A DNA stretch of 44,395 nt from Halorussus litoreus. Lineage in GTDB: Archaea; Halobacteriota; Halobacteria; Halobacteriales; Haladaptataceae. The notes beneath the pieces are model-generated. The model saw only the letters and a program-made list of their open reading frames with translations. It ran no database searches and was not told where the DNA came from. The stretch covers positions 1 to 44,395 of the forward strand of contig NZ_QLVG01000050.1 of the NCBI RefSeq assembly GCF_003382685.1. Reading direction: 5' to 3'. Position numbers and translations under genes: made by a program. Positions 32,413-40,665 of this stretch are shown here, piece by piece; within the stretch, counting starts at the first letter, position 1; every line of letters begins with the position of its first letter.

Positions 32413-32551
32413 GGCTTGGGGTAGCAGGTCGAACGTCAAAAGGATTGGCTACGGGGTGCGATTGCAAGTGGGCTGTCCTGTGGCTGCGAAAGTCGGAGCA
32501 AACAACCGGTAGAAAGCCCGCGCGAGTGCGCGGCCCTTTCAGTCCCACCCG

Positions 32552-32632
32552 GTAGTTAGTGTCACCGAGCGCGTCCCCGTAGTTAGTGTCACCGAGCGCG
32601 TCCCCGTAGTTAGTATCACCGAGGGCGAAAAG
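32552..32632. repeat. 27-bp tandem repeat, three copies
   Basis: Copies at 32552-32578 and 32579-32605 are identical (unit begins GTAGTTAGTGTCACCGAGCG), and a third at 32606-32632 diverges after about 20 bp. It lies in the 294-bp gap between the pyruvate kinase stop and the DUF7312-like start. There are no spacers, so it is a minisatellite and not a CRISPR. Confidence 0.9.
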
Positions 32633-39868: not shown

Positions 39869-40516
39869 ATGGCACGAGGACTTCCCGGCGTCTGGAGCAC
39901 GGTACTGAGCATCCCATTCCTGGCGAGCGGCGCAATCATCTACTTCGGGGACACGCCGTCCCCGGAGCTGTTGGGCGCGCCGCTGCTCGTGTTCGGCGCG
40001 TTCGTCGTCGCGATGGGGTGGTACGTCCACCTCGTCGCGGCTCCGCCCGAGCCGAGGCTTCGTGACGAGGAGGAGATCATCGACACGCGCCACCCCACGC
40101 AGAAGGCTCCGCTCGCGAAGGTCGGACTGAGCCTCCCGTTCCTGTTCGCGGCCGGCTTTCTCATGTTCTTCACGACCCAGCCGTACGTCTACCCGATGGG
40201 CGCGTTCGTCGTCGGCCTCTACCTGCTCTCGACGGGCATCCTGACGTACTGGACCAACTCGCTCACGACCTACTACATTACCACCGAGCGAGTCATCAAC
40301 TCGTTCCGGCTGCTGTCGCTGGTGCGCAAGGAGGTCCCGATGGAGAAGATCCGGGCGGTCCGCGAGAGCAAGTCGCCCATCGAGTCGCTGGTCGGCGTCG
40401 GGAACATCCGCGTCGCGAGCGGCGGCGGTGCCGGACTCGAGATCGTGATCCGGAACGTCAACGACGCCACGGCGTTCGCCGACGAACTCCGCGGGACGCT
40501 CAAGTCGGACGGCTGA
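39869..40516 (+). CDS. PH-domain (bPH2-like) membrane protein
   Basis: A 215-residue protein with four hydrophobic segments in two pairs (about residues 8-25, 33-53, 87-103 and 109-128) and a C-terminal bacterial PH-type domain (about 135-212: YYITTERVINSFRLLSLVRKEVPMEKIRAV to GGAGLEIVIRNVNDA). It starts 14 bp after the propeller gene with a Shine-Dalgarno GAGGAG 4-9 nt upstream of the ATG, so the two are co-expressed. The pairing suggests a membrane complex with an external propeller and a cytoplasmic PH domain. Confidence 0.82.
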   Translation: MARGLPGVWSTVLSIPFLASGAIIYFGDTPSPELLGAPLLVFGAFVVAMGWYVHLVAAPPEPRLRDEEEIIDTRHPTQKAPLAKVGLSLPFLFAAGFLMFFTTQPYVYPMGAFVVGLYLLSTGILTYWTNSLTTYYITTERVINSFRLLSLVRKEVPMEKIRAVRESKSPIESLVGVGNIRVASGGGAGLEIVIRNVNDATAFADELRGTLKSDG

Positions 40517-40544
40517 CTCCTTCTACGGGCGAGGTTATGATACC

Positions 40545-40629
40545 TTGCCCACACGTCGTTCTGCTGGCTTGCCCACACGTCGTTCTGATGGCTTGCCCAC
40601 ACGTCGTTCTGCTGGCTTGCCCACACGTC
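40545..40629. repeat. 24-bp tandem repeat, 3.5 copies, next to the M24 promoter
   Basis: Copies at 40545-40568, 40569-40592 and 40593-40616 plus a partial copy to 40629. The unit begins TTGCCCACACGTCGTTCTG; copies differ at one base (CTG versus ATG). The array ends 3 bp before the TATA-like CGCTTAACC (about 40632-40640) of the next gene. No spacers, so not a CRISPR. Confidence 0.92.
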
Positions 40630-40665
40630 AACGCTTAACCGGGCGGGTTGCGTGGAACCAGCTAT

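Follow-up and report, generated by a model that had tools for sequence, protein, structure and literature searches.

We analysed the promoter of a gene for an M24-fold (pita-bread) protein in Halorussus, on a stretch of DNA, hereafter the window, that is contig 31, 44,395 bases long, in a draft genome of 3.84 Mb; the features of the locus are collected in table 1. The gene lies downstream of a tandem array and of a promoter block, and the neighbour on the other side of the array is not the same gene in relatives. The M24-fold protein reaches the cut-off of no NCBIfam model, and its closest named relatives come from Halorussus species, the H. halobius protein being 90% identical. On alignment, three of the five prolidase metal-ligand positions are substituted, with G242, E253, and S372 standing where the Pyrococcus enzyme has the metal ligands D209, D220, and E327; of 97 aligned proteins, 96 show the substitutions and one has a gap at this place. 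The name peptidase is therefore doubtful, and the protein may, like creatinase, be a hydrolase without a metal.

Table 1. Features of the M24 promoter and its flanking genes (window coordinates)
Feature	Position	Strand	Remarks
Upstream neighbour: bPH_2 (bacterial PH domain) protein of membrane type	39869..40516	+	Outside the promoter
Extra copy 1	40544..40567	+	CTTGCCCACACGTCGTTCTGCTGG, that is, CTTGCCCACACGTC plus the 10-bp spacer GTTCTGCTGG
Extra copy 2	40568..40591	+	CTTGCCCACACGTC plus GTTCTGATGG; single change, GATGG for GCTGG
Extra copy 3	40592..40615	+	CTTGCCCACACGTC plus GTTCTGCTGG; identical to copy 1
Native copy, CTTGCCCACACGTC	40616..40629	+	Promoter-proximal element; TTGCCCMCACGTC is 40617-40629; conserved across genus orthologs
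TTGCCCACACGTC			Belongs to the native copy
BRE-like AACG and TATA-like CTTAAC(C)	40630..40640	+	About 31 bp before ATG
Conserved downstream arm, GGGTTGCGTGG	40645..40655	+	CGTG at 40651-40654 mirrors CACG in the native element, with the TATA box between them
M24-fold (pita-bread) protein, 400 aa	40666..41868	+	Creatinase_N and Peptidase_M24

The array is returned by TRF at 40544-40629 (period 24, 3.6 copies, 96% matches) with a score of 165, the highest among the 23 rows of the window, and since the best score in 20 dinucleotide-preserving shuffles of the window was 67, it lies far beyond chance. The three full copies and one partial copy described in the original prediction are thus real, head-to-tail and nearly identical as in a minisatellite (unit class of 10-60 bp); the first base of the array is 40544 and not 40545. 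Three 24-bp units precede a 14-bp partial last copy with one base change overall, a count taken from a 75-contig draft assembly, and drafts can mis-count such copies. From the last base of the array it is 36 bp to the ATG (40666) and, as in a phase-variable promoter repeat of the nadA type, 3-4 bp to the TATA-like box: the gap of 3 bp given initially applies if the box is read as GCTTAAC, and becomes 4 bp (AACG) if it is CTTAAC. A CRISPR array was rejected, given that the repeats are separated by one and the same 10-bp spacer with a single change and not by unique spacers, and so was a minus-strand translation of the array (DVWASQQN repeats in a 598-aa frame), whose frame crosses the M24 gene in antisense.

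Conservation was followed in an alignment of the window gene with 16 genus orthologs; a match to the gene occurs in 17 of the 18 genus genomes, its own included, and the genome with no match is 62% complete. These promoters share a block, TTGCCCMCACGTC-AACGTTTAACC-N5-GGRTTGCGTGG, at a nearly fixed distance to ATG. Upstream of the BRE, 13 columns average 1.56 bits across the 17 orthologs (1.54 bits in the 15 sequences other than the window and LT46), against 0.25 bits in columns -50 to -26 of the same alignment, a rise above the flanks that is proper to a cis-element, and against 0.65 bits for the same 13 columns in a control promoter, that of pyruvate kinase (17 of 18 sequences, one without the anchor being left out). 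Conservation thus continues beyond the basal elements, upstream of the BRE by 13 bp and downstream of the TATA box by 10-20 bp, far above the control. From the conservation of this block across orthologs it follows that the 14-bp partial copy at the end represents the native element, which each of the three full units repeats together with a 10-bp spacer. The array is thus neither a free-standing minisatellite nor, as first described, one that merely abuts the promoter: its partial last copy is a native part of the promoter block. The idea of a repeated protein-binding site gains plausibility, its repeated core, CCCACACGTC, being part of this conserved element; what does not hold is the added suggestion that the copies lie in helical phase, since 24 bp correspond to ~2.29 turns at 10.5 bp per turn, with a rotation of ~100 degrees from one copy to the next.

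In haloarchaea, the TATA box is given as TTWT and the BRE as CGAAA, with 72% of protein-coding transcripts leaderless (PMC4983044). The M24 promoter resembles this basal layout in its BRE-like AA and TTAAC box ~31 bp before ATG, a distance that would correspond to leaderless-type spacing, but departs from it as there described by the extra, gene-specific conserved arms that flank the box. The arms mirror each other around the TATA box as CACG-N23-CGTG, with 0.70 of the compared cells complementary versus a mean of 0.31 (32 centres tried). Both arms are altered together in three of the 17 orthologs, those with a strongly changed upstream arm; these joint changes may represent a single event, and the number of independent changes behind the dyad is small. 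Such mirrored arms suggest either a regulator that would contact both sides of the BRE/TATA, possibly repressor-like, or a second basal contact.

Judged from sequence searches, the element is gene-specific and confined to near relatives. With TTGCCCMCACGTSAAYNYTTAA and up to 3 mismatches the M24 promoter was matched in 16 of 18 genus genomes, with 2 further matches elsewhere and 2 for the reversed control, whereas the matches of the strict element pattern, found in 9 of 18 genus genomes, are M24 promoters in nine cases out of nine; a regulon-wide site was rejected on these two results. Among the named relatives (78 of 80, two having been dropped because their match starts elsewhere in the locus), 10 match at 12 or more of the 15 positions: six of the Halorussus kind (LT46 included), one Halomicrococcus, and three Haladaptatus. 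A 20-base stretch of the unit has no other occurrence in its own genome at up to 3 mismatches, and a 34-base stretch of the array was found in none of the 98 other genomes, hence in 1 of 99 searched; the array as such is not conserved. Restriction to this genome without conservation, the outcome named beforehand as adverse to the original prediction, therefore describes the 24-bp unit, which is unique to the genome, but not the 14-bp core. The decamer CCCACACGTC occurs 23 times in its own genome (reversed control, 3), four times within the array and 19 times outside it, always under stop-free frames of 256-886 codons. A promoter-like candidate in the same genome (L137), with a second CCCACACGTC and then a T run, was rejected for lying inside a 278-aa minus-strand ORF, presumably HNH-like by motif. 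At the order level, a paired-site search found some pair in 91 of 392 genomes, most rows being one recurring sequence that resembles coding DNA.

Extra upstream copies were detected in 3 of the 17 orthologs by a gapped self-comparison of each promoter (500 shuffles per promoter): the window (p=0.002), strain LT46 (p=0.002), and H. halobius, the sister species (p=0.004); the remaining 14 gave no extra-copy signal (p>0.1). LT46 carries three CCCACACGTC cores at 23-bp spacing, identical at 10/10 positions while their flanks have diverged, which hints at selection on the extra copies. H. halobius retains the native copy and one decayed copy 22 bp upstream, recovered by TRF and gapped alignment; an ungapped extra-copy search gave 8/13 for this decayed copy, no signal. 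That the sister species has no more than this is consistent with a young array, the first of the two options (young, or kept homogeneous) offered initially for the near identity of the units. In a tree of M24 and pyruvate kinase (2,961 columns, 17 rows) the window joins H. halobius (100/100) and LT46 falls in a different clade (98/96 and 99/99), so that at least two changes are required; the M24-only tree also joins the window with H. halobius (96/97) and leaves LT46 unplaced. Given the separate clade of LT46, there were probably at least two amplification events in the genus, giving tandem copies of the element 22-24 bp apart; the alternative history is one ancestral duplication followed by several losses.

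How often promoters carry such duplications was estimated on 444 kb, that is, the window plus 400 kb (the first 100 kb of each of the four longest contigs, C1-C4), which is not a random sample and in which gene starts follow a crude GC-position rule. A self-repeat score of at least 20 is reached by 7 of 262 other promoters (8/263 counting the M24 promoter), and as several of the eight look low-complexity or like mis-called starts, 7/262 is probably an over-estimate. At that rate ~0.4 duplicated cases are expected in the 16 other orthologs versus 2 observed, and the recurrence among orthologs is only mildly surprising. Non-coding TRF rows number 34 in the 444 kb. One locus of the same genome (C3:75515-75573) shares the architecture of the M24 promoter array: a 29 bp x 2 duplication stops immediately short of a TTTT box, 31 bp upstream of the predicted start. 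A Halorussus ortholog (L099) has an unrelated perfect array, 33 bp x 2.4, from 143 to 65 bp before its ATG. Together, the base rate, the C3 duplication, and the L099 array indicate that promoter-near tandem duplication is recurrent, and mostly unremarkable, here.

Overall, we suggest that the array arose when one arm of the conserved promoter element belonging to the M24 gene itself was amplified in tandem by a slippage-type process. The copy adjoining the TATA box would be the native working site, flanking the BRE/TATA together with the downstream arm, and a gene-specific regulator would probably bind this CACG/CGTG site. The three upstream units duplicate the upstream arm and the 10-bp spacer alone; lacking BRE, TATA box, and downstream arm, they most likely represent by-products whose effect is absent or modest, and would at best act as half-sites that raise the local occupancy of the same regulator. 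We hold with moderate confidence that they are slippage-derived extra copies, of little effect, of a real gene-specific cis-element; binding, the slippage route, and the weak effect are what we infer. Against by-product copies stand the probable two or more gains in the genus at 22-24 bp spacing and the intact cores of LT46. The same observations favour a functional multi-site array, where the regulator would bind all four copies cooperatively and copy number would tune M24 expression as a promoter rheostat; this possibility is tentative and clearly the less probable of the two. It would build on a core that is a conserved cis-element, on tandem copies in H. halobius and LT46 as against the 14 orthologs with none at p<0.1, on a history of at least two gains (or of one gain with losses), and on the precedent of nadA and IHF, where repeats alter the number of binding sites (PMC3899988). 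It fits poorly, however, with copies that hold one arm only and are unphased at ~2.3 turns, with the decay of the H. halobius copy, and with a base rate that already predicts part of the recurrence. Since only the upstream arm has been multiplied and the copies do not share one helix face, by-product copies are favoured over a multi-site array. A more ambitious version, in which the regulator would read the CACG arms around the TATA box and Halorussus lineages would repeatedly multiply the upstream arm to retune the gene, an archaeal promoter rheostat by slippage, seems to us unlikely.

A plain neutral minisatellite, overlapping the promoter by coincidence and leaving the conserved block as an ordinary basal promoter (BRE/TATA), is improbable: intergenic tandem arrays are indeed frequent in the sample, and the L099 array occupies an equivalent intergenic place, yet conservation extends on both sides well past the BRE and TATA box, at levels the control promoter does not approach. 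Reading the copies as duplicated promoters that have decayed (element, BRE, and TATA copied together, the TATA then lost) and that would provide alternative start sites is very hard to sustain: the extra copies of H. halobius and LT46 do continue into the start of the BRE/TATA (CGTCAGCGTT and CGTCGATAT), but the window spacer GTTCTGCTGG has no TATA-like run and is shared by the three copies but for one base.

With by-product copies as the preferred account, the comparison shows that what looked like a minisatellite beside a promoter consists of one conserved cis-element and of copies specific to the lineage: the element is single-copy in most related species and has three extra head-to-tail copies here. 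Should these copies act, the orthologs would provide a natural archaeal promoter set in which the element occurs once, twice, three times, or four times, suited to the study of site number versus transcription in a TBP/TFB system. Promoter repeats can change the number of binding sites, as do the TAAA repeats of Neisseria nadA, according to PMC3899988, which also cites yeast promoter-repeat work; as in those cases, tandem promoter copies possibly contain a regulator site here. Unlike nadA, the Halorussus unit is 24 bp long, is the gene's own conserved element, belongs to an archaeon, and is known from its sequence alone. PMC6749651 lists haloarchaeal examples of prokaryote satellites, among which, for the short-repeat ones of Halobacteria, coding repeats with a unit length that is a multiple of three predominate; the M24 array shares with them short GC-rich units in few copies, but differs from that predominant kind in being non-coding and in overlapping a conserved promoter element. 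Among open-licence papers we found none on the array or the element.

Array-like loci were also seen elsewhere. Six in other genera (L228-L233) and five in the genus (L188, L190-L192, and L194) have no M24 gene within the locus stretch examined; two of the former, a 27-bp array (L228, G388:C6:189743-189859) and a 28-bp array (L229, G266:C1:360033-360097), each from another haloarchaeon, contain CCACACGTC and have no M24 gene within 6 kb. Within the window, a 27-bp x 3 array (94%) at 32548-32627, non-coding by the gene rule, lies downstream of a pyruvate-kinase-like gene. The M24 promoters of other haloarchaeal families (L017, L019, and L046) have a different common stretch, CCGCCTCCTGAA, in a comparable position, 46-47 bp before the start.
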